A stretch of 61,044 bases of DNA from a virus: positions 1 through 61,044 of the IMG/VR virus record IMGVR_UViG_3300025133_000003; one strand, given 5' to 3'. Shown piece by piece: positions 1 through 44,061 of the stretch; positions within the stretch are counted from its first letter, which is position 1; every line of letters starts with the position of its first letter. The position numbers and the translations under genes were made by a program. The notes under the pieces were generated by a model. That model saw only the letters and a program-made list of their open reading frames with translations. It did not search any database and was not told the DNA's origin.

Positions 1-87
1 GTGGTGCCGATCCCCATCAGTGGGGATCAGGAAGCCGATCGGCTTCCGCCTGCCCCCGACGTGAGCCGGGAGCAGGGTGGAAGGTGA
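1..87 (-). repeat. Intergenic three-hairpin cassette (left contig end)
   Basis: On the minus strand this follows the stop codon at 88-90. It holds a GC-rich hairpin (positions 44-82, arms starting TTCC/GGAA and CTGC/GCAG), then the self-complementary GGAAGCCGATCGGCTTCC (30-47), then the palindrome GATCCCCATCAGTGGGGATC (9-28). The first 40 bases are identical to 61005-61044, so the cassette continues into the right end and feeds the gene that starts at 60990. There is no T-tract after the hairpin. Confidence 0.85.
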
Positions 88-222
88 TCAGCGGTCGATG
101 TGCCCCAGCTCGTGGTTGAGGAGGACCTCGCGGCACCGGTCCGCGAACTTGCCGGGGCCGGTGATGGGAGTCTTACGCTCGCTTGCCCGGTAGGGGCAGC
201 GGGACGCGAGGACGGTATCCAA
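88..222 (-). CDS. Possible small ORF with HELGH motif, or readthrough extension
   Basis: This short frame lies between the amber stop of the 253-696 gene and the cassette, and it is in the same frame as that gene. Its only plausible start is a TTG at 222, giving about 44 residues. The stop directly abuts the cassette, as real genes in this array do. Near the C-terminus it reads LLNHELGHIDR, which contains an HExxH metallopeptidase-like signature, but only three residues follow, so a working peptidase is doubtful. It could be a separate small gene, a 55-codon extension reached by TAG readthrough, or a decayed gene end. Confidence 0.3.
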   Translation of the reverse strand: MDTVLASRCPYRASERKTPITGPGKFADRCREVLLNHELGHIDR

Positions 223-252
223 GGCGCTGCACAGGGCGCGCGCCGTGGCTAC

Positions 253-696
253 CTAGGCGATGTTGAGGAGGGCGTAGGCGTCGGCAAGGGCGGACCGCGC
301 CTTGGCCAACAGTCCCTTGCGAGCCCGCTCGGTCCAATCCGGGTCGGCGGCTTCGAAGCCCAGTTCAAGGGCAAGTTCAAGCGCGTCGAGCGCGGCCGCC
401 AGCGCGTTGAGGTTGGTGGCGGCGGCGGTCAGGTCATCGTCTGCTCCTTCGTTCTCCAGTTCTCGCTGCTGCGCGCACCACTCGTGGTACCCGAGGCGGG
501 TGTCTTCGTTGGCGATTTCGTATCGCCAGTCCTCCGGCGGGAAGTCGGGGTCGTCATCCCAGGTGCCCCACACCGCCTTCTCGATCAGGAGTGCGATCTG
601 CCCCGCTACGGGGTCGATCAACTCCCCGATCAGGTCGAGGTGAGTCCGGAGCGCGTTCAGCGCCCCCTGGGGTGTGTTGGTGTTGCTCATGCTCAT
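253..696 (-). CDS. Hypothetical protein, accessory array
   Basis: Encodes 147 residues of no recognised family. The start is the ATG at 696, which sits at the end of the conserved leader GGAGAGACACCAC, rather than an upstream in-frame ATG that would cut through the cassette. The N-terminus MSMSNTNTP resembles two other array genes (7272 and 4239), showing that the start-associated sequence runs into coding DNA. The middle is acidic with several Trp residues, and the C-terminal half is an Ala/Leu-rich helical stretch (about residues 85-147). It ends in TAG with an open frame continuing after it. Confidence 0.75.
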   Translation of the reverse strand: MSMSNTNTPQGALNALRTHLDLIGELIDPVAGQIALLIEKAVWGTWDDDPDFPPEDWRYEIANEDTRLGYHEWCAQQRELENEGADDDLTAAATNLNALAAALDALELALELGFEAADPDWTERARKGLLAKARSALADAYALLNIA

Positions 697-803
697 GTGG
701 TGTCTCTCCAAATCCGATCCCATGGGTGGGGATCGTCAGTCGCGATGGACTGAATCCTGCTCATGAGCCGCGGCCCATGAGCAGGGGTTCAGGTCATCAC
801 TCG
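697..803 (-). repeat. Intergenic three-hairpin cassette
   Basis: On the minus strand, after the stop at 804: a hairpin with arms CCTGCTCATG/CATGAGCAGG, a second inverted repeat TCAGTCcatcGCGACTGA, then a one-base-short palindrome GATCCCATGGGTGGGGATC (716-734) and the leader GGAGAGACACCAC before the ATG at 696. The first hairpin has different arm sequences from neighbouring cassettes but stays paired. Confidence 0.8.
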
Positions 804-1229
804 TCAGGAGCTGACGTGTCCTTCGGGGGAGATCCCGCAGGTCAGCTTCCGGACGCCGTCCTTGATGACGACGACCGAGAGGTAGCCCTTGGGGAGATCC
901 CAGGGATCACGGAGGACCTGGCACTGGTCCTCCGTGGTTCCGTACCCCTCCAGCAGCTTGCGCAGGGCCTCGGCCTGGGGGTCCAGCGTCGAGGAAGCGA
1001 CGCGCAGATGCGCCGCCTCCTCGCAAGTGCCCTTGAGCTCGACGTCGATGGCGATCATGCGTTCGATGCCCGCGATGGCGAGATCGAACGTCTGGTACCG
1101 GTAGGCGAAGGCTCCCCCGTCGTCGGTCACGTCCCACGGCTCGTCGTCCCCATCACGGGGATCGAAGACCAGCAGGTAGATCCCGACGCGGAGGTAGGAC
1201 TGGTGCTCCTGCATCAGCTTGGCGAGCAT
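804..1229 (-). CDS. Hypothetical protein
   Basis: Encodes 141 residues, family not recognised. The ATG at 1229 overlaps the TGA of the upstream gene (TGATG) and has a strong Shine-Dalgarno sequence AAGGAGGT, which decides this start over longer versions. It is the last gene of a three-gene overlapping unit (1992 to 804). The sequence is mixed alpha/beta without membrane segments, and a central part (FDLAIAGIERMIAIDVELKG) looks like a strand-helix unit. Unlike cassette-led genes, genes inside the unit use ordinary ribosome binding sites. Confidence 0.75.
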   Translation of the reverse strand: MLAKLMQEHQSYLRVGIYLLVFDPRDGDDEPWDVTDDGGAFAYRYQTFDLAIAGIERMIAIDVELKGTCEEAAHLRVASSTLDPQAEALRKLLEGYGTTEDQCQVLRDPWDLPKGYLSVVVIKDGVRKLTCGISPEGHVSS

Positions 1230-1495
1230 CAGGTCACCTCCTTGACGTCGTAGTGGACTTCCAGCTGGAAGAGCTTGCCGTCCACCATGACGTGGTGGTC
1301 GCCCATGCAGTGCCACTCGATGGCGCAGTCGTTCTCAGCCTCGTCCAGCAGCTTCTGGAAGCAGTCCCGGGCGATGGCCTCGGACTTGCGTCGGTGTCCG
1401 CTTCCGAGGTCGACGTAGACCTCGACCTCGGTGGCGACGAAGTTGCACCCGCGGCCGTCGTAGATCTTGAAGATCTCCAATCGCTTGGCGGCCAT
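1229..1495 (-). CDS. Hypothetical protein, second gene of overlapping trio
   Basis: Encodes 88 residues beginning MAAKRLEIFKIYDG. The ATG at 1495 overlaps the TGA of the upstream gene, and its own stop overlaps the next start, so the three genes are translationally coupled. The pattern of a lysine-rich strand, an acidic helix and a His-rich C-terminal strand (HCMGDHHVMVDG) suggests a small alpha/beta fold. No known family was recognised. Confidence 0.75.
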   Translation of the reverse strand: MAAKRLEIFKIYDGRGCNFVATEVEVYVDLGSGHRRKSEAIARDCFQKLLDEAENDCAIEWHCMGDHHVMVDGKLFQLEVHYDVKEVT

Positions 1496-1992
1496 CAGAT
1501 CAGCCCTCGCAGGATGAGCGGCGAGGAGTACCCGTGGGGGCACGACCCGTCGGGCTCGACCCGGCAGCCATCGGCGGTGTCCACGACGCTGTCGTAGACG
1601 TACGCCTCCAACTCGTCGTCGCTGAGCCCATCGGCCCACGCCTGCTCGTCGATCCGGTCCGTGCCCTCGTCGCCGGGATCGGCAGCGGGGATCTCGTTGC
1701 GGACGATGACCGTGCCGGTGCGGGGGTATCCGGTCCGCGGGTCGCCCCAACGGATCTGGATCCGGCCCTCACCGTGCAGCCGCAGGAGGTCCTCGCGGTT
1801 GCAGTACGGCCCCGCCGCCGACCGGAAGTCCTCGTTGCTGTCCATGTCCTTCTGGATCTGGATCAGCGCAAGGGCATCAGCCTCCTCCGCGGCCTCGTAA
1901 CCGAGGTCCCCGGTGTACAGCTTGCTGTGGTCCCGCCCGTAGGCAGGCAGCAGCGGCGTGAGCCCAAAGGCTCCGATGGTTCGTTCATTCAT
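1495..1992 (-). CDS. Hypothetical phage protein with C-terminal VEPDGxCPHG motif
   Basis: Encodes 165 residues starting MNERTIGAFG, directly after the leader GTGAGACACACC. The C-terminus contains CRVEPDGSCPHGYSSPLIL, a motif I recall at the C-termini of many uncharacterised phage and plasmid proteins; its function is unknown. The two Cys and the His could bind a metal. It is the first gene of a coupled trio. A longer frame upstream would translate the cassette and is rejected. Confidence 0.75.
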   Translation of the reverse strand: MNERTIGAFGLTPLLPAYGRDHSKLYTGDLGYEAAEEADALALIQIQKDMDSNEDFRSAAGPYCNREDLLRLHGEGRIQIRWGDPRTGYPRTGTVIVRNEIPAADPGDEGTDRIDEQAWADGLSDDELEAYVYDSVVDTADGCRVEPDGSCPHGYSSPLILRGLI

Positions 1993-2094
1993 GGTGTGTC
2001 TCACTGTGGTGCCGATCCCCATCAGTGGGGATCGGGAAGCCGATCGGCTTCCGCCTGCCCCCGACCGCAAGGCCGGGAGCAGGGTGGAAGGTGA
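1993..2094 (-). repeat. Intergenic three-hairpin cassette
   Basis: On the minus strand: stop at 2095, hairpin with arms CTGCTCCCG/CGGGGGCAG, palindrome GGAAGCCGATCGGCTTCC, palindrome GATCCCCACTGATGGGGATC (2014-2033), leader GTGAGACACACC, ATG. It is nearly identical to the cassettes at 1-87 and 3754-3855. Confidence 0.85.
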
Positions 2095-2337
2095 TCAGCC
2101 CTTGTCGAGCTTGTCCGCAGCGTCGCGGACGGTCTTGACCTGCTGGTCGGCGCAGCCCGAGGACCCCATCCGATCGGCGTAGGCCCGAAGGTCGGCCGCC
2201 TCGGCCTGCTTGTAGTCAGAGCGCGTGCGCTCCTTCTCCTCGCAGTCCATGCAGATCAACGCCTCGCTGTACATCGACATGATGGACGAGAAGGACTTCT
2301 TGAAGCACCGCTGGCAGCGGCCGGTCCACGGGCGCAT
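2095..2337 (-). CDS. Small zinc-ribbon phage protein (CxxC...CxxC)
   Basis: Encodes 80 residues. The pattern is CQRC at residues 8-11, a hydrophobic Ser/Met stretch MSMYSEALICMDC, then charged EEKER...DYKQAEAADL. This matches a widespread small phage/plasmid zinc-ribbon family of unknown function that I know by its MSMFN...MICM-x-C core. The ATG at 2337 overlaps the TGA of the upstream gene (TGATG), making a coupled pair, and is preferred over an ATG five codons upstream. Confidence 0.8.
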   Translation of the reverse strand: MRPWTGRCQRCFKKSFSSIMSMYSEALICMDCEEKERTRSDYKQAEAADLRAYADRMGSSGCADQQVKTVRDAADKLDKG

Positions 2338-2567
2338 CACTCCCTCCAGCACGAGCTGGAGTGGATGAGGGCCTCGTCGTCCGGCGAGTAGTCCGCGTGG
2401 TAGCGGGACCCCTCGGCCTCGGAGATCGGCGGGTGGACCCGGCTGGGGTAGCTGAGGATCTCGGCCTCCTGCTCGATGTCGCTCTTGAAGCCGAGCGTTT
2501 CACCGAGCTGGACGCGCTTGCCCTCTACGAGGGGTGCGCGGCCGATGGTGCGTTTCCGTTTCGTCAT
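2337..2567 (-). CDS. Hypothetical protein
   Basis: Encodes 76 residues starting MTKRKRTIGRAP, with a basic N-terminus and an acidic C-terminal half (DYSPDDEALIHSS). It is led by the conserved leader TTGAGAAACACCC directly before the ATG. Its stop overlaps the zinc-ribbon gene downstream. No family recognised. Confidence 0.75.
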   Translation of the reverse strand: MTKRKRTIGRAPLVEGKRVQLGETLGFKSDIEQEAEILSYPSRVHPPISEAEGSRYHADYSPDDEALIHSSSCWRE

Positions 2568-2674
2568 GGGTGTTTCTCAATCGTGGTGCGATCCCCATCA
2601 GTGGGGATCGGAAGCCGGTCAGCTTCCGCCTGCCCCTGAGCGTGAGCCCAGGAGCAGGGTGGAAGGTGATCAGA
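2568..2674 (-). repeat. Intergenic three-hairpin cassette
   Basis: Contains the palindrome GATCCCCATCAGTGGGGATC at 2590-2609, a second inverted repeat GGAAGCCGGTCAGCTTCC (two non-pairing central positions) and a GC-rich hairpin whose loop differs from other copies. The leader TTGAGAAACACCC precedes the ATG at 2567. Confidence 0.85.
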
Positions 2675-3388
2675 TCAGGGCCGGTACCGGGGCAGGCTGC
2701 GGACGAAGCTCTCGTCCCGGGGGCTGTCCTCTTCATCGAAGAGCACCTCCGTGCCGGTGGCCTTGATGGCCCTGATCAGGGTCCCAGCGTCGAGGCCCTC
2801 CTCGAGGTAGCAGGTCTTGCCGTCGCTGCTCTGGTAGCTGCACGAGGTGATTTCACCCTCGATCCCCAGCTCCCGGAGCTTCTGACGGTCGACCTGCACC
2901 CAGCCATGGCCTGGATCGGTGTGGAAGATCAGGGTGACCGCGGCGGCCAGCGCCTCCTCGGCCATCACCCGCTTCACGTCCCAGTACGAGACGTAGCTGC
3001 CCTCCCCGGCGTCGTCACGCACCCAGCAGCTGGGCTGGGTGGAAGCGCAGTAGACCTTGAGGGGGGCGCCGCTGCCGTCGACCTCGACCTCACCCTCCAG
3101 GCTCGCGATGCGAACCCAGGAGGTGATCTCCTCGCTCTCGATGGCCGCGAGGATCGTCTTGAGGTCCTCGCTGCACGCATCGACCCGATGGACCCGACCC
3201 TCGAACTCCTCGACGGTCACCCGTCCGGAGCGGTTGAGTCCGACCGTGTGGCCGTTGACCGAGATCACAAAGTCACCGAAGCCCACATGGTCCCCACCGA
3301 AGTGGGTGACCGCAGCCTGGACGAACGGGGTGTCGACGTAGAGCTTGACGTTGATGCCCTCGCCCCGGATCTGGTGATGCGCGCTCAT
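2675..3388 (-). CDS. Hypothetical protein, 237 aa
   Basis: A soluble alpha/beta protein of unknown family. Residues about 14-75 are beta-rich with HVGFGDFVISVNGHTVGL. Three to four Cys in the middle and C-terminal third (VYCASTQPSCW, TSCSYQ, KTCY) could form disulfides or bind metal. The start ATG at 3388 overlaps the upstream stop by four bases (ATGA), so it is coupled to the DUF2958-like gene. It is among the larger products of the array, so it is a good candidate for an effector or anti-defence role, but nothing in the sequence shows this. Confidence 0.75.
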   Translation of the reverse strand: MSAHHQIRGEGINVKLYVDTPFVQAAVTHFGGDHVGFGDFVISVNGHTVGLNRSGRVTVEEFEGRVHRVDACSEDLKTILAAIESEEITSWVRIASLEGEVEVDGSGAPLKVYCASTQPSCWVRDDAGEGSYVSYWDVKRVMAEEALAAAVTLIFHTDPGHGWVQVDRQKLRELGIEGEITSCSYQSSDGKTCYLEEGLDAGTLIRAIKATGTEVLFDEEDSPRDESFVRSLPRYRP

Positions 3389-3753
3389 GCCGCACGCTCC
3401 TTCCGGAACTGGCCCAGGGTGCGGGTCAACGTGCCGACGTAGCAGTCGCGCTCGACCAGGGGCAGCATGCCGCCCATGCCCGAGGCTCCGGCCAGCTCGC
3501 TGAGCATGAAGTAGCCCAGCTCACCGCATCCGGGGAGCAGCTCAGCCCATCCGAAGAACTCGTAGTCGTCGCCGACCACCTGCCCTTCCAGCGCGTACCA
3601 GACGGCACCGCTGTAGGGGGAGAAGTACTTGACGCCTACAAGGCGGTCCTCGGTCGGTCCGGTCCCGTCGCCGCTGCCCATGGCGGGCATCGCAGCGATG
3701 AGATCGGCCGGGAGGAGCTTGTGCCCTCGCGTCCGTTCGTTGTGTTCATTCAT
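3385..3753 (-). CDS. DUF2958-like protein
   Basis: Encodes 122 residues after the leader GTGAGACACACC. The order KLLPADLIAAMP, VKYFSPYSGAVWYALEGQ, DYEFFGWAE, ELGYFMLSEL and a final PLVERDCYVGTLT fits the DUF2958 family, a single-domain protein common on plasmids and phages near mobilisation and accessory genes. Its biochemical role is unknown. The N-terminus MNEHNERTRG again shows the shared ATGAAT start-associated sequence. Confidence 0.85.
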   Translation of the reverse strand: MNEHNERTRGHKLLPADLIAAMPAMGSGDGTGPTEDRLVGVKYFSPYSGAVWYALEGQVVGDDYEFFGWAELLPGCGELGYFMLSELAGASGMGGMLPLVERDCYVGTLTRTLGQFRKERAA

Positions 3754-3855
3754 GGTGTGTCTCACTGTGGTGCCGATCCCCACCGATGGGGATCGGGAAG
3801 CCGATCGGCTTCCGCCTGCCCCCGACCGCAAGGCCGGGAGCAGGGTGGAAGGTGA
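3754..3855 (-). repeat. Intergenic three-hairpin cassette
   Basis: Same layout as 1993-2094. The palindrome here is GATCCCCACCGATGGGGATC on the plus strand (3775-3794), so only the central four bases differ from the commonest copy while both eight-base arms are intact. Confidence 0.85.
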
Positions 3856-4239
3856 TCAGATGCGATGGACCGCCGCGACGCCGCCGTTGACCGGCTCGAT
3901 GAACAGCGGCAGGGAGCCCAGGTTCACCTCGTGAACCGAGGGGGCCTCCCAACTCCCGTACATGGACAGCGTGATGCAGTCGTCGTCCCCGTGGGTCCGG
4001 GGCTCCATGAGGATCGTGAACAGGGCCCCTTCAGACCAGCCGTAGGGGTCGCCCTCGACGACGTAGCCGTGTTCGTAGTCCCCGAACATGCCGGAGCACC
4101 CGCGGGTCAGGTTCTCAGCACGCTCCTTCTCAGTCTCCGACGCGCCCGACCGCAAGGAGCCGTAGCTCCGTCCGACCAGGGAGTTGGAGCGGACGATCGC
4201 CAAGGCGACGTCCATCGCAGTGATAGTGGTGTTGCTCAA
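3856..4239 (-). CDS. Hypothetical protein with TTG start
   Basis: Encodes 127 residues beginning (M)SNTTITAMD. The leader GTGAGACACCACA is followed by TTG where other cassettes place ATG, and the next codons match the SNT start seen in two sister genes, so TTG at 4239 is the likely start. The C-terminal half is beta-rich (GALFTILMEPR...CITLSMYGSW). Family unknown. Confidence 0.75.
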   Translation of the reverse strand: MSNTTITAMDVALAIVRSNSLVGRSYGSLRSGASETEKERAENLTRGCSGMFGDYEHGYVVEGDPYGWSEGALFTILMEPRTHGDDDCITLSMYGSWEAPSVHEVNLGSLPLFIEPVNGGVAAVHRI

Positions 4240-4348
4240 TGTGGTGTCTCACGATTCCGATCCCCATCAGTGGGGATCAGGAGGCGCTGGCCTCAACACT
4301 GCCCCCGAGGGAAGCCCGGGGGCAGGGGTTGAACTCAGCGGTCGTTCA
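4240..4348 (-). repeat. Intergenic three-hairpin cassette
   Basis: Palindrome GATCCCCATCAGTGGGGATC at 4259-4278, second repeat GAGGcgctgGCCTC, and a long hairpin with arms TCAAC.CTGCCCCCG and CGGGGGCAG.GTTGA. Compared with 1-87, the outer arms changed from TTCC/GGAA to TCAA/TTGA on both sides. A five-codon ORF (MNDR, minus strand) overlaps the stop of the upstream gene. Confidence 0.85.
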
Positions 4349-4888
4349 TCACGCAGCCTCCGACCGGACGTCCAGCGGGTGGGCGTACGACCAGAGGGCC
4401 GGGTGGTCCTCGGGCCAGACGTCCCACGTCGAGCCGTCCTCGCAGACGATCTTGTCGCCTTCGCGGACGCCGATCAACGCACCCGCCTCACGCCAGTAGG
4501 ACGTGTAGGCCAGCAGGCTGACCATGCTCAAGCCGGTCCAGCTGGGGTTGGCCTGCTGGTACTTCGCCATCGTCTGGAAGACTCCCTGCGCGCCCTGGGC
4601 GAACATCGCGACCGAGTCGGCAGGCAGAGGCCCGACGACGTCGTCGCAACGGTCCGGGTTCAGGGACAGCAGCGGGGAGACCCAGGACAGCTGCACCATC
4701 ACGCGGAACGGGATCCCGACCTTGTCGATCAGGATCCCGCCCTCGGCAAGGCGGTGCAGGTACGGCCCAAGCCGCCGATCAGGGATGCTGACGCTGACCT
4801 CAGAGGACTCGTCGCGTCGGTACTTGGCCGACACGGAGCCCTGCGAGGAGCCACGCTCCAGCACGGGGTAAGGGATTTCGTCATTCAT
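4349..4888 (-). CDS. Hypothetical protein, 179 aa
   Basis: Starts MNDEIPYPVLERG after the leader GAAAGACACACC. It is a soluble mixed protein. The central part (GGILIDKVGIPFRVMVQLSWVSPLL) is hydrophobic and strand-like, and the C-terminal region (EGDKIVCEDGSTWDVWPED) resembles a small beta barrel such as those binding nucleic acids. No family recognised. Confidence 0.75.
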   Translation of the reverse strand: MNDEIPYPVLERGSSQGSVSAKYRRDESSEVSVSIPDRRLGPYLHRLAEGGILIDKVGIPFRVMVQLSWVSPLLSLNPDRCDDVVGPLPADSVAMFAQGAQGVFQTMAKYQQANPSWTGLSMVSLLAYTSYWREAGALIGVREGDKIVCEDGSTWDVWPEDHPALWSYAHPLDVRSEAA

Positions 4889-5030
4889 GGTGTGTCTTTC
4901 GTGGTGCTGATCCCCATCAGTGGGGATCAGGAGGCCGCTGGCCTCAATCCTGCCCCCGACGTGAGCCGGGAGCAGGGGTTGAACTCAGCGGTGCAGGACC
5001 CTGCAGTCGTCGTTCATCGCCGCGTGGATC
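4889..5030 (-). repeat. Intergenic three-hairpin cassette
   Basis: Palindrome at 4909-4928, second repeat GAGGCCGCTGGCCTC, hairpin with arms TCAAtCCTGC.CCCG and CGGGAGCAGGgGTTGA. An extra 40-50 bp between this hairpin and the stop at 5031 encode a possible 10-residue peptide (MNDDCRVLHR) and a small GCAGGACCCTGC hairpin. Confidence 0.8.
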
Positions 5031-5234
5031 TCACGACTGACCCTCGGGCACGTCACCGAACAACGGCAGCTGCACGGCGACACCACGGGGCATGAGGTCC
5101 AGGCAGGCCGTGGCCTGCTTGTACATCTCGGCGTCCACGTAGGAGGGATGCAGGGCATCTTCGATGATCTGCTCCTCCTGTTCGCGGCTGGCGTTCCGGG
5201 GGATCTCGATGGTTACTATTCGGTGTGCGGTCAT
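5031..5234 (-). CDS. Small hypothetical protein
   Basis: Encodes 67 residues beginning MTAHRIVTIEIPRNASREQEEQI. The ATG at 5234 follows GGAGAGACACACCAC. It looks like a beta strand followed by an acidic helix. The C-terminus QLPLFGDVPEG resembles a peptide motif that binds the beta sliding clamp (Q-L-x-L-F). That would fit a small protein docking on the host clamp, but it is inference from a short motif. Confidence 0.75.
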   Translation of the reverse strand: MTAHRIVTIEIPRNASREQEEQIIEDALHPSYVDAEMYKQATACLDLMPRGVAVQLPLFGDVPEGQS

Positions 5235-5336
5235 GTGGTGTGTCTCTCCAAATCCGATCCCCATGGGTGGGGATCGAGAGGCTGTGGCCTCACGCCTGGG
5301 CAGGAGGGATCACTCCCCCCTGCCCAGGGTGTCAGG
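5235..5336 (-). repeat. Intergenic three-hairpin cassette
   Basis: Palindrome GATCCCCATGGGTGGGGATC at 5256-5275, second repeat GAGGCTGTGGCCTC, and a hairpin with arms CCTGGGCAGG and CCTGCCCAGG around GAGGGATCACTCCCC. Confidence 0.85.
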
Positions 5337-5429
5337 TCACTGCTGCTGATCGTCCAGCTGGGGCCCGCGCCGCCGAATGAACGGCAGCCCGAGTCCGAGC
5401 ATGACGCAGGCCCAGGCGAACCAGGTCAC
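5337..5429 (-). CDS. 30-residue membrane peptide
   Basis: Begins with GTG at 5429 that overlaps the TGA of the upstream membrane gene (GTGA). The peptide has one hydrophobic segment (FAWACVMLGLGLPFI) followed by RRR and a polar tail ending QQQ, so it would insert with a positively charged cytoplasmic flank. Tight coupling and composition support translation, although it is very short. Confidence 0.55.
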   Translation of the reverse strand: MTWFAWACVMLGLGLPFIRRRGPQLDDQQQ

Positions 5430-5701
5430 GAGCGGCCCCCGGTGCGGATCCGGGTCATGCCCGGGTTGCGGCCGAGGCGCGGCCGGCGGGTGATCCGGGG
5501 ACGCTTCCGCGTCTGGATCACGCTGTACGCCACGTCGATCACGAGCCGATCCCCATCGGTGGGGATCAGCAGGGGCGCTTCGTTCGCCGCCGTGAGATCG
5601 GGCGCGGGGGATCGCGTCACGTAGCCGTGAACGATCGAGGCGAAGCCCGAGGCGAAAAACATGCAGATCAGGACGATCGGGAGGATGACGGTGTGTTCCA
5701 T
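5426..5701 (-). CDS. Small membrane protein interrupted in frame by the palindrome
   Basis: Encodes 91 residues after the leader GGAGACACACCAC. Residues 5-27 form a transmembrane helix (VILPIVLICMFFASGFASIV); the rest is soluble and ends in a basic Arg-rich tail (KRPRITRRPRLGRNPG). Bases 5548-5567 are a full copy of the intergenic palindrome, read as LIPTDGDR, without breaking the frame. It is followed by a coupled membrane peptide. Confidence 0.75.
   Translation of the reverse strand: MEHTVILPIVLICMFFASGFASIVHGYVTRSPAPDLTAANEAPLLIPTDGDRLVIDVAYSVIQTRKRPRITRRPRLGRNPGMTRIRTGGRS
5548..5567. repeat. In-gene copy of the GATCCCCA...TGGGGATC palindrome
   Basis: A perfect 20-base palindrome copy with central bases TCGG lies inside the 5426-5701 gene. 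It is translated as I-P-T-D-G-D-R with no frame disruption. Confidence 0.85.
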
Positions 5702-6031
5702 GTGGTGTGTCTCCGATCCCCATGGATGGGGATCCTGTTGGTGGTGCCAGCCGATCCCCATCCATGGGGATCCAACTGGCGGGAACCGATCCCCATCCAT
5801 GGGGATCGAGAGTCCGGGATGGACTCACCCCTGCGCTGGATCTGTGCCCACCCCACGCAGACTTTCATGCGCAGGCGGGTGCCCAGGGGCAGGGGTGAGC
5901 CAGGGGGACGGATCCCCCTGGACTCGGTGGTGACGTGTGTCTGTGGTGGTGAGACCGTGCTGGTTTGCATGGTCTGGAGCAGTCCGCTCCCTCCTGCCCC
6001 CGAGCGGACCCGTGGGCAGGGTGGCAGGTGA
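5702..6031 (-). repeat. 330 bp gene-free stretch of tandem cassettes with three palindromes
   Basis: No convincing gene. Three palindromes occur at 5715-5734, 5753-5772 and 5788-5807 with 18 and 15 bp between them. They are followed by GAGTCC...GGACTC, a long hairpin with arms CACCCCTGC/GCAGGGGTG, another hairpin (GGGGGATCCGTCCCCC region) and a second cassette-like hairpin pair next to the stop at 6032. It looks like two or three cassettes left side by side after the gene between them was lost. Confidence 0.75.
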
Positions 6032-6172
6032 CTACGCGATGGCGTGGAACTGGACGGCGAGGCCGGCATCCACGTGAACGTGGGGCACGACCAGAATGAA
6101 CGACGCACGGGCCGGGGGATCCGGGGTGAACGTCGCGGGGCCGAAAGACCAGGGGAACATGATGTCGGGCAT
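6032..6172 (-). CDS. 46-residue hypothetical protein
   Basis: A short frame beginning MPDIMFPWSFGPATF and ending HAIA, led by GAGGTACACCACATG, the array's leader motif. It is Pro/Phe-rich with hydrophobic strands (FILVVPHVHVDAGLAVQF). Its position exactly between a leader and a cassette hairpin supports it as a gene despite its size. Confidence 0.6.
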   Translation of the reverse strand: MPDIMFPWSFGPATFTPDPPARASFILVVPHVHVDAGLAVQFHAIA

Positions 6173-6318
6173 GTGGTGTACCTCGTGGTGTGATCCCCAT
6201 GGATGGGGATCGTGGTGTCAGTCTCCAGCGGACTCAGCAGCCATCCAGCGGACCGGATGACTCTTGGGTCCGGCCGAGGGACCGAAGTCCCCCGGCGCGG
6301 ATGGTTCCCCCTTTCCCC
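6173..6318 (-). repeat. Intergenic cassette with divergent hairpins
   Basis: Palindrome GATCCCCATGGATGGGGATC at 6192-6211, then CCAGCGGActcagcagccaTCCAGCGG-type repeats and a hairpin with arms GGTCCGGC/GCCGGACC near 6255-6290. It follows the stop at 6319. Confidence 0.7.
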
Positions 6319-7272
6319 CTAGGCAGCCGCTTCAACCGGCGGGAGGTTGGCGGCGGCCTCGTCCAGAGCGGACGAGTCGACGTCTTCGGAGACCTCGGGC
6401 ATGACGGACACGACAGTGAACGTCGCAGCCTCGCCCTTGGCACCCTTGACCAGGTTGCTCACGACCGCGATCCGGCCGCAGACGCACTCGATCGACAGCC
6501 GGCTCCAGAGGCTGTAGGGCAGCGACGGGAGCGTCGTCACCTTGCAGCCGCACTGGTAGGACACGGACGGGTCGGCCTTGCGAGTCGCCTCGTTCGTCGC
6601 GCGCTTCTCCGCGCGTTCCTTGCGAGCCTTCTTGACCGCAGCAGTCGCCTGCTTGACGGTCATTTCGACCTTGGCGCCGTCCTTGCCAGCCTTGACCGGG
6701 AAGCGGACGCGGCCGCCAGCCACGATCCCGTCGAGCTTCGCGCCGTGGGCGTCCAGCTTCAGGGTCTTGGCAAGCGCCGGAGTGATCCCGATCGGGCCGA
6801 AGCCACGAATCTGATCCTCGTCGTCCTTGGCGTAACGACCGATGATGAAACCGATCGTTTCCAGGGCGACGCACTCCTCCTGCGTCCAATCCCGGCCCCG
6901 CTTCCCACCGGTCGTCAGACCGAGGGACGTGCGGACACCGTGCAGAGCGATCATGGCGAGGCTCTGAACGATGTACGCGTGACCGCGATGCATCGGGTAG
7001 AGACCCAGGAAGTACCGCTCACGCGTCACGTCGCCATTCATCCAAGGATGATCGGCATCGTGGGTCATGCGCTGGACCGACAGGCTGTCGCCCGACTGTT
7101 CGTAGCCGGCCGACAGGCCGGTCAGGAACGCGGGGTTAGCCTTGGCCTTGGTGTACTCGGGCAGCTTCACGATCATGCCGTGGATCATGACGATCCAAGC
7201 CTGAAGCATGGAGAGCATCTTGCCCGGGTCCGTGACCTTGGCCTTGGGGGTGTTGGTGTTGGTGTTGGACAT
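6319..7272 (-). CDS. Hypothetical protein with C-terminal zinc ribbon, 317 aa
   Basis: The start ATG at 7272 has GGAGGA seven bases upstream, and the protein begins MSNTNTNTPKAKV, the shared array N-terminus. Residues 25-150 are helical and hydrophobic in places. Residues 200-245 are Lys/Ala/Arg-rich. The C-terminal part has YQCGCK ... IECVCG (CxC and CxCG about 17 residues apart), as in zinc ribbons that end SprT-like proteins. However, no HExxH site was found, so it should not be called a peptidase. It is the first gene downstream of the long noncoding RNA and may share its transcript. Confidence 0.8.
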   Translation of the reverse strand: MSNTNTNTPKAKVTDPGKMLSMLQAWIVMIHGMIVKLPEYTKAKANPAFLTGLSAGYEQSGDSLSVQRMTHDADHPWMNGDVTRERYFLGLYPMHRGHAYIVQSLAMIALHGVRTSLGLTTGGKRGRDWTQEECVALETIGFIIGRYAKDDEDQIRGFGPIGITPALAKTLKLDAHGAKLDGIVAGGRVRFPVKAGKDGAKVEMTVKQATAAVKKARKERAEKRATNEATRKADPSVSYQCGCKVTTLPSLPYSLWSRLSIECVCGRIAVVSNLVKGAKGEAATFTVVSVMPEVSEDVDSSALDEAAANLPPVEAAA

Positions 7273-7355
7273 AAGTCCTCCGTGGTGCGTCCCTGTTAGC
7301 TGCGGCAGCCCGGGACCGTGGCTGCCGCCCTGATCCCCATGGATGGGGATCGAAG
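7273..7355 (-). repeat. Cassette variant between noncoding RNA and first array gene
   Basis: Contains the palindrome GATCCCCATGGATGGGGATC (7332-7351) and a hairpin with arms GGCAGCC/GGCTGCC around a nine-base loop. Here the gene uses a real Shine-Dalgarno sequence instead of the usual leader, although GCACCAC remains. Confidence 0.75.
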
Positions 7356-7359
7356 TCTG

Positions 7360-8063
7360 AAGGGCTCCGCGCACCACACGCACAGCGCCGGCATGTATCA
7401 CCGACTGCCCTTCCGTCTGTCGTTGTCCACGGAACCAAAGCCCCGTGGTTTCACACTGCCGACCCAACGGGGCCGACACCGATTCATGACTTGCTTCGCT
7501 GTGCACGTGCTTTGACCGACGAACGTCGGCTGCCTTCGTGCGGACACTGCATCCCCGATCCGTTAGGAAACCGGGTCCGGTCGGCAGCCCTGAGGACTGC
7601 CAGTCACTGTCAGTGAACTACTGCGCGGCCCCGTGCGATTGGGGCGGCCTACAGCGGCGGATGTTTCAAACGCAACGGCCGAAGCCGTCATCCGCTTGCG
7701 CCCCCCGGATCGGCCGGAGGGTCGCGCGCTGAACAGGGGTCAACGGGACCGTCCATGGTCCCTGCCCTGCTCTCCTGTATCCACGATGACTCCCTCGGCA
7801 CTGTCTACCCCGTGTCACACCGTCGTGGCTCCGGCAGCCTCCGCTGCCCTTACTCATCGGCTAGCCGCTTGTGCGCGGTATGCCGGCCTTGTCGTGCTCT
7901 GCAAGGGGTCGGGGACTCGCTTGTCCCGTCCCCCGGTTCCGGTCTGCGTGCTGCTCTCCTCCGGGGCCGGTCCGCATCGCGGGGGCCGGCATCGCCCGGT
8001 AGGTCATGAGGGAACACGCGTCGCCGTAGCGTCGTGTGGGGTGCCCGTTGTCGGGGGGGTCAT
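7360..8063 (-). ncRNA. Candidate long structured noncoding RNA (~700 nt)
   Basis: No frame here looks coding, yet the minus strand is dense in short stable hairpins. These are GACGGC-UUCG-GCCGUU (a C(UUCG)G tetraloop, near 7671-7690), GGGACC...GGUCCC (7745-7762), GGCAGC-ggag-GCUGCC (7834-7849), GCCCC...GGGGC (about 7627-7646), CCACGG...CCGUGG (7430-7449) and CCGA...UCGG (about 7517-7530). A boxA-like sequence stands immediately upstream (8064-8083), as in rRNA operons and other long untranslated transcripts. Size and setting recall phage-borne large RNAs such as GOLLD and ROOL, but I cannot match it to either. The ends are approximate, and the 3' end may run on into the gene at 7272. Confidence 0.55.
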
Positions 8064-8083
8064 CATTCGGTTTTCAAGGAACG
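8064..8083 (-). promoter_or_regulatory. boxA-like antitermination sequence
   Basis: The minus strand reads CGTTCCTTGAAAACCGAATG, very close to the TTCCTTGAGAACT / TTCTTTGAAAACT boxA of rRNA leaders, the site bound by NusB-NusE during antitermination. A CCGGU...ACCGG hairpin lies directly upstream (about 8087-8104). Its placement before a long untranslated structured region is what boxA is used for. Confidence 0.6.
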
Positions 8084-8108
8084 CTGCCGGTTCGTTGCCA
8101 CCGGCCCA

Positions 8109-8236
8109 CTCAATCTAGTCCCTACTCGTGTGAGGGACTTAGACGGAGCACCTAAGTGCCTGGAATTGCGGGGGTTTTTCAGTTGTTGACAGGGGCTCGA
8201 TCCCCATCGGTGGGTATCCACCTAAGTACCTGAAAT
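8109..8236 (-). promoter_or_regulatory. Probable promoter/operator region of the noncoding RNA
   Basis: Two direct repeats CACCTAAGTxCCTGxAAT occur at 8149-8166 and 8219-8236, 70 bp apart. A degenerate palindrome GATCCCCATCGGTGGGTATC (8199-8218, one mismatch in the arms) lies between them, and an AGTCCCT...AGGGACT hairpin follows at about 8116-8140. No clear -35/-10 pair is visible, so the promoter itself is not located. Confidence 0.4.
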
Positions 8237-8524
8237 CATTGAGGAAATGCCAGGGGGGTACCTGGCGCTGTCCAGCCGGTTGCGCTGTCCGGCCTATCAA
8301 TGACAGGTCGCCGATAGACCGTGAACGCTGTACGTCGACCCGAATCTTTTTTGAGGAAGCCGCGTGTCAACCTCTCACCCACCCCCCCGGGGGGGTCCGA
8401 TGACCGGTCTTTTATATGGCCCTTCAGCCAGACGATCGGGACACACCCATCCCTTCGTCGCGCCCGTAGAGGTAGGGATCGACCCCAGGGGCTTGGCGCT
8501 CCCGTCAGGGCTCTGCTCTTCTAC

Positions 8525-8634
8525 GGACGCCTAAGAACAGAATTGAAAAGGTTCTTCAGCTCCACGTCCTCTCCCCACCGGTCCCACAGGCCTGTGGAGC
8601 TCCAAACCCCTGAAGATTCTGTTCTTAGGCGTCC
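8525..8634. repeat. 110 bp element with 19-base perfect terminal inverted repeats
   Basis: Left arm 8525-8543 (GGACGCCTAAGAACAGAAT) and right arm 8616-8634 are exact reverse complements. Inside, AGCTCCAC (8558-8565) pairs with GTGGAGCT (8594-8601), and CTTCAG pairs with CTGAAG. It could fold into one long cruciform or RNA hairpin. It may be a replication origin, a miniature mobile element or a regulatory RNA. No target-site duplication is evident. Confidence 0.75.
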
Positions 8635-8797
8635 GACGACGCAGGCACCCCTGCCGGGATCGGCAGCTCCAGCTGGGGGGATGCGCAAACGAATCAGCGC
8701 CCCCACCCTCATCCCGGCGAAGAACCTCGAGGCCTCGTTGACCGATCTGCAGATGGCCCTCACCCTAGGGGAGGCGGACGGGCGGTGGGTGGATCCA

Positions 8798-8835
8798 GAT
8801 CCCCACTACCGATCGGTGGGTACCAAGGGGATCTC
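8798..8835. repeat. Degenerate palindrome with extended loop
   Basis: AGATCCCC and GGGGATCT enclose an inner CCCAC...GTGGG pair around TACCGATCG. This is a relative of the cassette palindrome with an enlarged loop, in otherwise gene-free DNA. Confidence 0.5.
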
Positions 8836-8861
8836 CACTCTGTCCGGGGCTGCAGTGGGAG

Positions 8862-8898
8862 AAGGGGTTGCTAGGGACCTTGCCCTAGGCAACCCCTT
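8862..8898. terminator. Strong hairpin at the end of the gene-free region
   Basis: AAGGGGTTGCTAGGG (8862-8876) pairs with CCCTAGGCAACCCCTT (8883-8898) with one bulged base and a six-base loop, followed on the plus strand by TTTAAAT. It lies 146 bp beyond the stop of the minus-strand gene ending at 9044, so it could stop that transcript or one coming the other way. Confidence 0.5.
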
Positions 8899-9043
8899 TA
8901 AATAGTACGCGTTGATCCTCGCCGAGATTGCTCCAGTGGTACTTCCGCGCCAATGCTGGCGTCAGGGCTGCTGGGAGCTCCGAGCCTGGAGCTTGCGGAG
9001 CAGCTGGAGATCTGGGTCCAGGTACTCCGGATCCAGGGGGGAG

Positions 9044-9865
9044 TTACAGGGACTCGAGCCGCCACAACGCCAGCACCTCGGCCAGGTCCCAGCCCATCGA
9101 CGTGATCAGCTGCAAGACCGTGACGGGGCGCATCCTCCCCCGCTCCATCGAGGCGTACGAGTCCGGGGCGATCCGCAGGGCATCCGAGACCTCCCGGCCC
9201 CCGGCCCCCGACAGCTCCCGGACCCCGCGCAGCTGGGCCCCGAAGTACTCCCAGTGGGGCTTGTCCTCCTCGGTGCGCTGCAGATGCTTGATGGGGGCCC
9301 TGGACGACGGGAGCTTCAGCGCAGGGGGCGGTGGGGCCGGGACGCCCGCCAGCAGCTCCCCATCACCCTCGAGGGGGAAGACCGGCCCCAGACCTCCCCG
9401 GGGATCCATCCACAGCCCGCGCCACATCGCCTCGGGGCGAGCCGCCGGATCCAGACGGGGACGGTCCAGCGGCCAGGCCGTCAGATCCTCGGTGCGCCAG
9501 CTCGTGGCCTCGTACGGGAGGGAGCGATCCCCCAGCACGTCCGGCATGGGGCCCCCCGGCTCGTCGTGCTCAGCCCAGCGGATGAGCTCCGCGGTCTTGA
9601 TCATCTCCACCCACGCGCCCGACAGACGGACCTCCATCCGCTCGATGAGCTCCCGCAGGGGCAGCGCGGGCATCCGGGAACTGAGGGGCTCGGGGTAGCT
9701 CATGCGACGCAGGCAGTGCCGGCAGTACGACAGGTTCTGGGCCATCCCCGCCGGCGCCCAGAAGATCCGGCACCGGCCGCACCGGTACAGCTCCCCCAGC
9801 TCCGAGCCAAACCACACGCCGATCTTGCGGCCCGTGGTGGGGTCGTAGCCCCATCCGCGGCTCAC
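9044..9865 (-). CDS. Zinc-ribbon plus HTH (XRE-like) DNA-binding protein
   Basis: Encodes 273 residues. The N-terminal 60 contain CGRC ... CRHC, a probable zinc ribbon. The C-terminal ~65 residues (AQLRGVRELSGAGGREVSDAL...SYASMERGRMRPVTVLQLI) fit a Cro/CI-type helix-turn-helix with the typical Y-x-x-x-E-R-G turn. The middle is Trp/Pro-rich. GTG at 9865 overlaps the stop of the upstream winged-helix gene, so the two are coupled and probably form one regulatory operon. It is a likely transcription regulator of phage genes; the target is unknown. Confidence 0.75.
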   Translation of the reverse strand: MSRGWGYDPTTGRKIGVWFGSELGELYRCGRCRIFWAPAGMAQNLSYCRHCLRRMSYPEPLSSRMPALPLRELIERMEVRLSGAWVEMIKTAELIRWAEHDEPGGPMPDVLGDRSLPYEATSWRTEDLTAWPLDRPRLDPAARPEAMWRGLWMDPRGGLGPVFPLEGDGELLAGVPAPPPPALKLPSSRAPIKHLQRTEEDKPHWEYFGAQLRGVRELSGAGGREVSDALRIAPDSYASMERGRMRPVTVLQLITSMGWDLAEVLALWRLESL

Positions 9866-10170
9866 GCCAGCAGGGCCCGCAAGGCCTCCCGACCCTGGGC
9901 CGTGATCGCGTACTCCTTGATCGCGCGGCCCGCGCCGGACTTGCCCCGCTCCGCTAGCTCATCCGCCTCCGTGATGAGGCGATCGATCAGCCAGCCCTCC
10001 TTGGCCAGCTTGACCACGGTCACGCCCAGACGGTTGGCCCACGCGGCGCGGTCGTCCTGGGGAACCCCCTCCAGCAGCTCGTGCCGAGTCTGAGGACCGC
10101 CCAAGACCAGGCGGGCCAGCAGGCGGTGGGAGGTCGATCCGTACTTCAGGTTCTTCAAAGTGAGCTCCAC
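9862..10170 (-). CDS. Winged-helix DNA-binding protein
   Basis: Encodes up to 102 residues. The pattern RLLARLVLGGPQTRHELLEGV...RLGVTVVKLAKEGWLID and the C-terminal KEYAITAQGREALRALL fit a winged-helix (PadR/MarR-like) fold. The first possible start is GTG at 10170, but an in-frame TTG at 10158 has a better-spaced GGAG, so the protein may begin (M)KNLKYGS. It is divergent from the multi-winged-helix gene at 10333. Confidence 0.65.
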   Translation of the reverse strand: MELTLKNLKYGSTSHRLLARLVLGGPQTRHELLEGVPQDDRAAWANRLGVTVVKLAKEGWLIDRLITEADELAERGKSGAGRAIKEYAITAQGREALRALLA

Positions 10171-10332
10171 TCCGCGACTTGGTGATTCGCTGAGTGTATA
10201 CCAAGTCCTGATAGGGCATTGTTAGGGACCAGAACGCGGAACCCCCGGCCGACAATTAAGCCGACCGAGGGCCACCACGAGGGGACACACCACATGAACC
10301 CCTCGTCGGCAGAATAACGAATCGGAGTGGTT

Positions 10333-11817
10333 ATGTTCAGGATCGAGTTGGGGAATGACGACATTCGGGCTCTCAAGAAGCACGGATCCGTCAAAGGGAA
10401 GGCGCTCGCATCCATGGCCAAAGGCTTCGGGGGAACCCTCGAGCTGACCTGGAGTCCAGAGACTGCCGAGATCTACGGGGCCCCGGAGCTGCCCCCCGCC
10501 AAAGTCGAGGCCGAGGCCCGCGTCGCTCCTGAGCCGGAGCCGGTCGGCGCCGCCCCACTGCCCCCGGGAGCCAACACCGGACTCAAGGGGAGCGTGATGG
10601 ACTGGATCGCTCAGATGGAGCCGGGGACCCAGTTTGGTACCCCGGAGCTGCGCAAGCAGTTCGGGATCACCACCAAGGCCGCCAACAACGTCATGCGGAC
10701 CCTGGCCAAGGACGTGGTCAAGCGGATCGGCAAGTCCGGTCCCGGCCAGAGGGCGAAGTGGCTCAAGGAGGCTCCCGCCGCCGCCGCCGCAGCTCCGGCT
10801 CCCGCCGCGGTCCCCGCGCCTGCGCCGGAACCTGCAGCTCCTCCCAAGCCCAAGAAGCCGGCCCCCACGCGACTGGCGGTGCTGCGCGCCCTCAAGAAGC
10901 ACGAGCCGGCCACGCTCGCGGCCTTCCATGCGGAGATGGGCTGCACTGTCGGGGAGGCCCGGGGCTACGTCGCCAGCCTCTCCAAGGCGGGGCTCATCGC
11001 TCAGGGCAAGTCCGACCAGCTGTGGCGCATGACCAAGTGGGGGCGTCAGTACCTCAGGCAGCCCACCCTGGTGATCCCCGAGGGTGAGTTCGCCCGTCAC
11101 CAGGATCGGCTCGAAGCGACGGTGGAGGCCTACGGCCGATCGGTGTTCAAGAGCCAGTACACCGAGGCCACCAAGATCAGCGCCAAGCGGTTCTCCGACG
11201 TGGTCGATCTGAGCGACCGGCTCCGCTGGGTCAACCGCGAGGCGGGGCTCATCGAGCCTGTCGCCAAGGCTGAGACCGCGGCGATTCAGAAGCTGTCCCG
11301 GGAGCGCGTGATCCGACTGCTGCTCAAGGGACCCGTCTCGGCCGACCAGCTGGTGGCTCAGATCCCCGGCTCCACCCGCAAGCGCGTCCTGGCCACCCTG
11401 AACGCGGCCAAGACCGCGGAGCTGACCGAGGAGGCGGGAGCCGACAAGTGGAAGGTGACCAAGACCGGCGGGGTGTTGTACGCCCACGACCGCAGCGAAC
11501 TCAAGCTCGCCCCGGGAGCCAACGGGCGCAAGCGCCTGGAGGCCACCGCCGCCGGCATGGACCGCCCCATCAGCCGGGAGGAGTTCCTCAACGAATGCCA
11601 CGCGCGCGGCCTGAAGATGAGCCCCTCGCGGTTCAGCCGGATCGTCGGGGAGAGCCCCCAGCTGAAGTGGTTCCACCAGCCGTCGGGCCAGGTCGAGTCG
11701 GTCAAGAGCAACGGGAGCAGCCGAGCCCCCCGCTCCACCCCCACGCCCTCGCTGAACTCCATCGCCAGCAAGATCGGAGATGAGGCCCTGTCCAAGGTGC
11801 TGCAGGCCGGTGGCTGA
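10333..11817 (+). CDS. Multi-winged-helix protein (about five units), possible replication or packaging initiator
   Basis: Encodes 494 residues; ATG at 10333 has GGAG upstream. After an N-terminal ~70 residues, five helix-rich units follow, each with a helix-turn-helix-like core and a short wing. They lie at about 75-140, 175-245, 250-305, 310-375 and 385-445. The first two are joined by a long Ala/Pro linker (APAAAAAAPAPAA region, 145-172). Tandem winged helices occur in replication initiators that bind iterons, in plasmid partition proteins and in large repressors. No ATPase or catalytic motif is seen. It leads a plus-strand run of four overlapping genes. Confidence 0.7.
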   Translation: MFRIELGNDDIRALKKHGSVKGKALASMAKGFGGTLELTWSPETAEIYGAPELPPAKVEAEARVAPEPEPVGAAPLPPGANTGLKGSVMDWIAQMEPGTQFGTPELRKQFGITTKAANNVMRTLAKDVVKRIGKSGPGQRAKWLKEAPAAAAAAPAPAAVPAPAPEPAAPPKPKKPAPTRLAVLRALKKHEPATLAAFHAEMGCTVGEARGYVASLSKAGLIAQGKSDQLWRMTKWGRQYLRQPTLVIPEGEFARHQDRLEATVEAYGRSVFKSQYTEATKISAKRFSDVVDLSDRLRWVNREAGLIEPVAKAETAAIQKLSRERVIRLLLKGPVSADQLVAQIPGSTRKRVLATLNAAKTAELTEEAGADKWKVTKTGGVLYAHDRSELKLAPGANGRKRLEATAAGMDRPISREEFLNECHARGLKMSPSRFSRIVGESPQLKWFHQPSGQVESVKSNGSSRAPRSTPTPSLNSIASKIGDEALSKVLQAGG

Positions 11818-13048: not shown

Positions 13049-13081
13049 TCGTCCAGCTGGCGCGCGGCCCAGCGCGACTAG
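13045..13081. terminator. Bidirectional hairpin between convergent genes
   Basis: CTAGTCG (13045-13051) pairs with CGACTAG (13075-13081), and CAGCTGG pairs with CCCAGC inside. The arms contain the TAG stops of both convergent genes. There is no T-tract, so it may be a stop for both transcripts that does not follow the classical rule, or an RNA processing site. Confidence 0.5.
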
Positions 13082-15673: not shown

Positions 15674-16235
15674 AGACCCCACGGCTGACGCGGGCGATGC
15701 GCTCGTCGACCTGCATCACCTTGCGGACGGAGTTGATCGGGATCTTGGTGCGCTCAGCCACCTGGCCCGCGCGCATGGCCCCGTTCGTTCTCAGCAGCGA
15801 GGCGATCTTGTCGGCGTTGGTCTTGGGCTTCCGATCCCCACTGGTGGGGATCTTCTGGGGATCCTTGGCCCGCTTCACCATGTCGGACTTCACCCCGGGC
15901 TTGAGCTGGGCGTCGCGGTCCGTGGGGATGATGGCGGTGCCCTCGCCCGCGTAGCGGTCCAGAGCCTTCTCCATCGACTTGCGCTCGTACTCGTCGGCGT
16001 AGTGCTTGCCGCGGAGCTCCGGCGGCGACTCCTTGGGCCAGGTGCCCCCGGTCCGCTTCATCACGGGCAGCTCGCCCTTGGGGAAGGCGCGCACGGCACC
16101 GTGACGGCCGCAGATGGAGCAGAGGATCGCGCGGAACCCCTCACCCTTGAGCAGGCCGTAGTGGTTGACGCGGAGGAAGAGGGAGAACTGCTCGCCGCAG
16201 AGTTCGCTGGCGCAGTTGAAGCTGTAGAAGGGCAT
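15654..16235 (-). CDS. Zinc-ribbon plus winged-helix protein
   Basis: Encodes 193 residues; ATG at 16235 has AGGA upstream. The N-terminus (MPFYSFNCASELCGEQF...ILCSICG) is a CxxxxC...CxxC zinc ribbon. The C-terminal 60 residues (NADKIASLLRTNGAMRAGQVAERTKIPINSVRKVMQ...RGVYAF) form a typical winged helix. In this position it could be the DNA-recognition (small) terminase subunit or a regulator. Codons for PQKIPTSGDRK include a full copy of the array palindrome (15833-15852). Confidence 0.75.
   Translation of the reverse strand: MPFYSFNCASELCGEQFSLFLRVNHYGLLKGEGFRAILCSICGRHGAVRAFPKGELPVMKRTGGTWPKESPPELRGKHYADEYERKSMEKALDRYAGEGTAIIPTDRDAQLKPGVKSDMVKRAKDPQKIPTSGDRKPKTNADKIASLLRTNGAMRAGQVAERTKIPINSVRKVMQVDERIARVSRGVYAFAQS
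15833..15852. repeat. In-gene copy of the GATCCCCA...TGGGGATC palindrome
   Basis: A perfect 20-base copy with centre CTGG lies inside the 15654-16235 gene. It is read as K-I-P-T-S-G-D-R, about 8 kb away from the accessory array where the repeat is common. Confidence 0.85.
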
Positions 16236-43524: not shown

Positions 43525-43712
43525 CCGACAAGGACCTGCGCTGCTGGGCCGGCTCAGGCCTGTACCTGCTGCTCATGGTCTCGGTCGTGGTGTTCTTGAC
43601 CCAGGTGAAGATCCCCCAGGAGAACCGCGACATCATCGTGACGGTGATCGGCGTGATGGCTGGCGGGGTGGGGGCTGCGGTCAGCCGGTTCGTTGGCCGG
43701 CGTCAGGAGTAG
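43521..43712 (+). CDS. Two-helix membrane protein (holin/antiholin-like)
   Basis: Encodes 63 residues with GTG at 43521 overlapping the spanin stop. Two hydrophobic helices (GLYLLLMVSVVVFLTQV and DIIVTVIGVMAGGVGAAVS) and a basic C-terminus (RFVGRRQE) fit a small class II holin or antiholin. It is the last gene of the lysis run; its stop is in a palindrome shared with the convergent gene. Confidence 0.6.
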   Translation: MTDKDLRCWAGSGLYLLLMVSVVVFLTQVKIPQENRDIIVTVIGVMAGGVGAAVSRFVGRRQE

Positions 43713-43732
43713 CTCAACCCTCGAGGGTTGAG
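43713..43732. terminator. Perfect 20-base palindrome at a convergent gene junction
   Basis: CTCAACCCTCGAGGGTTGAG follows the TAG of the plus-strand lysis operon and contains the stop of the minus-strand gene. It can form the same hairpin in both transcripts, like the hairpins at 13045-13081 and 51098-51128. No T-tract. Confidence 0.55.
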
Positions 43733-44028: not shown

Positions 44029-44061
44029 ATCGGTGTCTCCTGGGGCAATGATACAGCTGGG

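Follow-up and report, generated by a model that had tools for sequence, protein, structure and literature searches.

Repeated intergenic cassettes in the leftward genes of a phage, with evidence for selection on RNA structure

Results

Analysis of a 61,044-bp virus record (referred to as the window, the whole stretch of DNA analysed) revealed that one element fills at least 14 gaps between leftward (minus-strand) genes, and the variation among its copies supports selection on the structure of the corresponding RNA. This support comes mainly from strand-specific G.U pairs and from an extended stop-codon helix that recurs in copies held out of the alignment. The paired changes between cassettes, which the original prediction had presented as compensatory, are overstated as independent compensatory mutations because the copies exchange blocks. 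We propose, with a probability of about 0.5, that the cassettes fold within the leftward early mRNA, at most of the points where two translation units meet, and would act there as an intercistronic mRNA boundary.

Architecture of the cassettes

In the mRNA sense (minus strand), the order of a cassette is stop codon, long hairpin (H1, with arms A and B and a core), alternative hairpin H2, palindrome H3, and start codon (Table 1). The 5' side of the long hairpin consists of arm A (~7 nt, often with the stop codon), 2 nt, arm B (5 nt), and 2 nt, followed by the core stem of 11–15 bp, 1 nt, B', 2 nt, A', the 3' arm of H2, H3, the leader, and the start codon. A pairs with A' and B with B', so that A, B, and the core form an extended hairpin of ~24 bp with internal loops of 2x2 and 2x1, in which the helix of arm A spans the stop codon. 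The extended hairpin begins at the upstream stop in about half of the copies, with the stop codon ending 4 nt before B in c00, c20, c37, and c57, and 1 nt before B in c52. The link to the stop codon is not universal, since the called upstream stop lies 9–88 nt before B in six copies (c07, c26, c42, c49, c551, and c574). H2 is formed by B' (with part of A') paired with a downstream arm, and the long hairpin and H2 are mutually exclusive because B' is common to both helices. By computed energy the long hairpin was the more stable fold in 10 copies, by ~3–8 kcal/mol, whereas H2 was in one (c551). H3 has the form GATCCCCA-YNNR-TGGGGATC, with arms of 8–10 bp and a 4-nt loop, and lies 18–22 nt from the start codon in 12 of 14 cases. 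The gene after c42 probably starts with TTG at 4239, 19 nt past H3, while the gene downstream of c49 starts with ATG at 4888.

The GATCCCC palindrome has 16 exact occurrences versus 0.01 expected. A covariance model built from 11 copies and searched against the window also recovered 59336–59418 (E = 2.5e-8) and 5786–5904 (E = 1e-4), neither of which was in the training set. An alignment that included c593 was discarded, as the c593 row was misaligned.

Table 1. Positions of the cassettes and of the genes assigned by domain search
Feature	Positions	Strand	Details
Cassette c00	1–92	(-)	Leader and start codon 60988–61004 if the record is circular
Cassette c07	697–801	(-)	H3 one G shorter
Cassette c20	1993–2099	(-)	
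Cassette c26	2568–2674	(-)	
Cassette c37	3754–3860	(-)	Copy of c20, near-identical over the entire cassette
Cassette c42	4240–4342	(-)	A 4336–4342; B 4329–4333; core 4315–4325/4299–4309; B' 4292–4296; A' inside 4285–4291; H2 arms 4290–4294/4281–4285; H3 4259–4278
Cassette c49	4889–4992	(-)	A 4986–4992; B 4979–4983; core 4965–4976/4949–4960; B' 4943–4947; A' 4934–4940; H2 arms 4940–4945/4931–4936; H3 4909–4928
Cassette c52	5235–5344	(-)	Same architecture; 15-bp core of unrelated sequence
Cassette c57b	5702–5940	(-)	Second, rearranged; three tandem H3 (5715–5734, 5753–5772, 5788–5807)
Cassette c57	5976–6036	(-)	TAG stop within arm A; H1 and H2, no adjacent H3
Divergent gap c62	6173–6318	(-)	H3 6192–6211; A/A' pairing not found
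Divergent cassette c535	53546–53682	(-)	Long extended hairpin, without H3
Cassette c551	55106–55220	(-)	Core CCTGCCCAGG/CCTGGGCAGG; H2 stabler than the long hairpin
Cassette c574	57379–57485	(-)	
Divergent cassette c588	58837–58955	(-)	Without H3
Cassette c593	59316–59412	(-)	A overlaps TGA stop; separate B helix absent
Divergent cassette c599	59954–60068	(-)	GCTGATCG/CGATCGGC arm spanning the stop codon
HTH protein	9044–9865		Domain search
HTH protein	10333–11817		Domain search
Terminase-like protein	13078–15015		Domain search
P22-type portal	16243–18186		Domain search
HTH protein	44062–44703		Domain search
Integrase	44971–46317		Domain search

Pairing and covariation among the copies

Comparison of the stems confirmed the string changes that had first drawn attention to them. 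The outer arms are TTCC/GGAA in 1–87 and TCAA/TTGA in 4240–4348 and 4889–5030, the main stem changes from CTGCCCCCG/CGGGGGCAG to CCTGCCCAGG/CCTGGGCAGG (55106–55250), and the second repeat changes from GGAAGCCGATCGGCTTCC to GAGGCCGCTGGCCTC at 4931–4945. The CTGCCCCCG/CGGGGGCAG stem is perfect only in 4240–4348; in 1–87 and 4889–5030 the 3' arm is CGGGAGCAG, a difference read as C.A in the plus strand but as G.U in the minus strand.

The further claim that both sides of the stems vary while pairing is kept held over the alignment of 11 cassette copies (A2). The named structure contains 14 pairs with changes on both sides, versus 9.3 in shuffled alignments and 7 in the best slid register, and 43 both-sided cells versus 15.1 ± 2.7 (best slid register, 13). 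Paired cells amounted to 93.5% across the 11 copies versus 80.9 ± 1.3% in shuffles, and the covariation score was 0.363 versus 0.141 ± 0.017, with slid registers at ≤0.096; the pairing beat 500 of 500 shuffles and each slid register. Run unaided on A2, RNAalifold returned the A-B-core helix and H3, with 33 pairs, 14 of them changed on both sides. H2 in one common register was weaker, yet above the shuffles. The arms of a copy paired better with each other than with swapped arms, with p = 1e-5 for A (10 distinct arms), 0.003 for B, and 0.008 for H2. In a held-out test, the duplex energies of the flanks around the core were compared between own and swapped flanks in six copies outside the alignment; the duplexes of own flanks were the stronger (permutation p = 0.0015), except in c62 and c57b, which have no A:A' pairing.

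Covariation was significant in part when the relatedness of the copies was modelled. In an R-scape-like test, which combined a G-test with average-product correction and re-placed the substitutions along a neighbour-joining tree, 2 of 35 pairs (14–52 and 25–42) reached E < 0.05 and 28–39 had E = 0.065, from 11 related rows of low power. The other pairs fell short of E < 0.05, and no column pair outside the structure reached it. The most sequence-constant hairpin, GATCCCC...GGGGATC, provides little covariation evidence, and independent events are few because the copies are related and recombining.

Strand-specific wobbles and block exchange

Using a strand-neutral stem definition that penalised G.U and A.C equally, we counted 28 GU wobbles on the mRNA strand versus 5 AC (wobbles of the other strand), a ratio that does not represent 33 independent events because the copies are related; the controls, 772 stems elsewhere, gave 182 versus 175. 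The G.U pair at columns 27–40 is present in 11 of 11 cores, including that of c52, which is otherwise unrelated. Neither a DNA palindrome nor a homogenising mutation has a reason to retain this invariant core G.U. Bases are also conserved beside the asymmetric internal loop (A8, C16–C18, and T19–G20 of A2), and the conservation of unpaired bases and of the internal loops (2x1 and 2x2) likewise speaks against mutation alone as the source of H1.

Comparison of c49 with other copies revealed a mosaic. Its core is identical to that of c00 (similarity 1.00), and its outer arms are 0.96 identical to those of c42 and 0.46 to those of c00, so the outer-arm contrast between c00 and c49 could be one block exchange. 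Gene conversion, which had been raised as another source of the paired changes, can account for this contrast between 1–87 and 4889–5030. Taken alone, the paired changes could arise by template switching or exchange without selection on RNA. Paired changes between paralogous hairpins can thus be block exchanges, and the wobble asymmetry is a better indicator of RNA selection.

Proposed role at mRNA boundaries

As an mRNA boundary, the long hairpin would serve either as a substrate for RNase III-type processing or as the stabilised or terminated 3' end of the upstream message. H3, which borders the next initiation region on its upstream side, would cap the 5' end of the downstream message, adjoining its ribosome-binding site. 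RNase III processing sites are cut in a duplex of about two helical turns, and that of the long hairpin (7+5+13 bp, two internal loops) has a length compatible with such predicted cleavage. The RNase III processing hairpins of T7 are long and irregular, contain internal loops, and occur at successive early-gene junctions; the long hairpin of the cassettes resembles them, and H2 and H3 are not known to have a T7 counterpart.

If a ribosome terminated at the stop codon, A and B would lie beneath it and B' would be free to form H2 alongside the core, and the boundary would thereby be linked to upstream translation. A stronger proposal, that each early-operon junction is a bistable RNA switch that senses ribosome termination upstream and governs processing, termination, or translation at the following gene, appears unlikely; if true, an entire phage operon would be punctuated by relays coupled to translation. 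Because the copies vary, the fold, the strand, and the pair of exclusive conformations can be read from them, which yields a specific, probeable RNA hypothesis.

A scan for sigma-70-like promoters, blind to phage-specific ones, found none in 1–10400 and one in 43700–61044, outside the cassettes, and no cassette hairpin of the H1, H2, or H3 type is followed by the T-run of an intrinsic terminator. Readthrough transcription across the cassettes is the simplest picture because both a sigma-70-like promoter and a T-run terminator are lacking there. H3 also occurs inside late-region coding sequence (15833–15852, perfect) and in non-coding 8199–8218, copies that a DNA site fits better than an mRNA element.

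Alternative explanations

Template switching and gene conversion could homogenise both arms, in which case the cassettes would be neutral or selfish DNA palindromes. Template switching is documented as creating and maintaining RNA hairpins (PMC8794818), and the mosaic c49, the near-identical c20 and c37, and the H3 loops found in both inversions (TCCA/TGGA; TCGG/CCGA), as expected from spacer inversion, all agree with it. However, template switching erases wobbles and mismatches, yet the cores retain their G.U in every copy and the mRNA-strand bias is strong, and the position, orientation, and start-codon spacing of the cassettes are constrained. We therefore regard a purely mutational account as quite improbable; template switching may have supplied the changes on which selection then acted.

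Two other roles are tentative alternatives of similar standing. H3 alone could be functional, as a 20-bp DNA operator (GATCCCCAYNNRTGGGGATC) to which a phage repressor or activator binds, comparable to stoperators but dyad-symmetric; H1 and H2 would then be accessory. Its near-invariant sequence, dyad-symmetric down to YNNR, its tandem copies at 5715–5807 and extra-gap copies at 8199 and 15833, the HTH proteins encoded by the phage, and the similar palindromes of Cluster O and Microbacterium Cluster EG phages are consistent with an operator. The fixed spacing of 18–22 nt to start codons and the variation on the mRNA strand (flanking pair C-G/U-A/U.G, one inner pair A-U/G.U) argue against it, and it leaves H1 and H2 unexplained. 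The other possibility is that H1 is a terminator or attenuator without a U-tract, and that H3 with a phage-specific promoter restarts transcription for each unit. Termination followed by restart has been proposed for the gaps of Cluster K mycobacteriophages that combine a hairpin with an ESAS promoter, and the ESAS of Adephagia hold putative promoters with an adjoining hairpin at which transcripts may be terminated or processed (PMC11373665). The TM4 gaps also have the same order (stop, hairpin, inverted repeat, ribosome-binding site, start); the cassettes, however, contain neither a -35/-10-like sequence nor a T-run, whereas some TM4 hairpins have T-runs, e.g., GGGGGCGTTTTCGT. Finally, HK022 put and lambda nut/boxB are cis-acting antitermination RNAs, usually present once or twice per operon. 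A cassette of this mode would re-modify RNA polymerase at each early-operon junction, in line with the repeated two-hairpin RNA, the conserved bases beside the asymmetric loop, and the long unidirectional gene array, but the copy number differs from put and nut, Rfam gave no match, and no terminators to overcome were found, making this role highly improbable.

Comparison with known intergenic repeats

Actinophages and other high-G+C phages contain many repeated intergenic motifs (ESAS, EG, and O repeats) of unknown role, and repeated start-linked or intergenic motifs are described for actinophages in Pope et al. 2011 (PMC3203893), PMC7302621, PMC4351075, and PMC11373665. The SAS/ESAS of Cluster K mycobacteriophages and Cluster EF Microbacterium phages resemble the cassettes in occupying many non-structural intergenic gaps in one orientation, with an inverted repeat directly upstream of a conserved ribosome-binding leader; unlike the cassettes, the ESAS repeat is conserved in sequence and contains a putative sigma-70 promoter. 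The 13-bp SAS GGGATAGGAGCCC (≤2 mismatches) is absent at the cassettes, its one match (33547) being in a coding region and below chance, and H3, with its 8–10-bp arms and 4-nt loop, differs from the imperfect 17-bp inverted repeats with spacer upstream of SAS. In the TM4 genome, which we compared directly, the gaps consist of stop, hairpin, inverted repeat, SAS, and start, with the hairpin after the stop as in the cassettes; unlike in the cassettes, some hairpins have T-runs and the inverted repeat carries TTGACA. The leader GAGACACACC-ATG was rejected as a diagnostic, being common in unrelated phages and Nocardia.

A very close parallel of H3 is the 18-bp inverted repeat GATCAACCNNGGTTGATC of Cluster EG Microbacterium phages, located 14–22 bp upstream of start codons (PMC7302621). 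Both are GATC-ended palindromes at the same distance from leftward gene starts, and H3 shares the character of a short perfect palindrome 14–22 bp before non-structural starts. The half-sites differ (GATCAACC in Cluster EG versus GATCCCCA in H3), and stop-side hairpins, present in the cassettes, are not reported for Cluster EG in the literature covered. The Cluster O 17-bp dyad repeats and Cluster A 13-bp stoperators have dozens of dispersed, often intergenic copies. H3 resembles the Cluster O repeats in dyad symmetry (PMC4351075), whereas the Cluster A stoperators are asymmetric 13-bp DNA sites in one orientation, bound by the immunity repressor; the Cluster O repeats are not start-linked, and covarying H1/H2 are described in neither cluster. 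REP/REPIN-type palindromes share with the cassettes many palindromic copies at gene ends and exchange between copies, but the cassettes are found in one phage only, with fixed start spacing, no associated transposase seen, and an mRNA-strand wobble bias. The portions of the actinophage-motif literature covered describe no stop-codon hairpin that both covaries and excludes the folding of a second hairpin.

Search for relatives

Searches of phage DNA, IMG/VR patterns, capsid relatives, and RNA models identified no cassette relative outside the virus. Rfam gave no match at the gathering threshold in the window (best weak match in 1–6400, E = 0.57), DNA similarity among phage records gave no cassette-bearing relative, and the exact H3-plus-leader and H3 patterns gave single-copy matches only in IMG/VR. 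With the RNA model, 18 records gave no match and 396 genomes of one phylum gave a single one, at chance level, and early proteins used as bait led to no relative with cassettes. No repeated palindromes were found in five phages with a ~60%-identical capsid protein (G012–G016, whole or near-whole) or in shorter fragments. The capsid protein is distantly like those of Myxococcus phages Mx8/Mx9, and prophage searches for the host gave only matches of ~25% identity. Among metagenomic phages with capsids ~60–70% identical (L020–L051; ~53–64% G+C), those examined all lack cassettes, which may mean that this lineage acquired the system recently or that it was lost in surrounding lineages. Two further fragments of this virus (L015 and L016) share the palindrome at 15833–15852.

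Genome context

The record has 66.7% G+C, and its ends share an exact 40-bp overlap (1–40 = 61005–61044) that falls within c00. Joining the ends restores a cassette gap of normal length (101 nt, with several other gaps of 102–107 nt), and the genome is therefore probably circular or terminally redundant and the record complete. Genes were assigned by codon-usage gene finding and domain searches, which also indicated scaffold-like and capsid-like proteins, HTH regulators, an ERF recombinase, a C5 methylase, and a DpdA-like protein; judged by this gene content, the virus is a temperate phage. All cassette genes are on the minus strand, from 7272 down to 1 and from 60990 down to ~53545. Genes within a unit mostly overlap by 1–8 nt, and units are usually separated by a gap of ~90–140 nt with a cassette.

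Upstream of the leftward array, 7273–9043 comprises 1.8 kb without a confident gene, with H3-like palindromes at 7332 and 8199, the latter having the direct repeat CACCTAAGTRCCTG on both sides; this region is a candidate early control region. Very short ORFs between the called stop and the cassette stop (MNDR* in 4316–4378 and MNDDCRVLHR* in 4985–5030) may be remnants of deleted genes. The 20-bp GCGCGCCGTRGCTACCTAGG is present twice (238–257 and 55280–55299; one mismatch), each copy with a minus-strand TAG near a gene end. After the TAG at 253–255, ~55 in-frame codons ending in ...NHELGHIDR (HExxH motif) precede the next stop, suggesting possible readthrough or a broken gene. The gene at 57512–58420 contains a 35-bp tandem duplication (57743–57816, 97% identical), and 30845–39592 encodes a 2,915-aa protein with short family matches only, one of them to an endolysin family.
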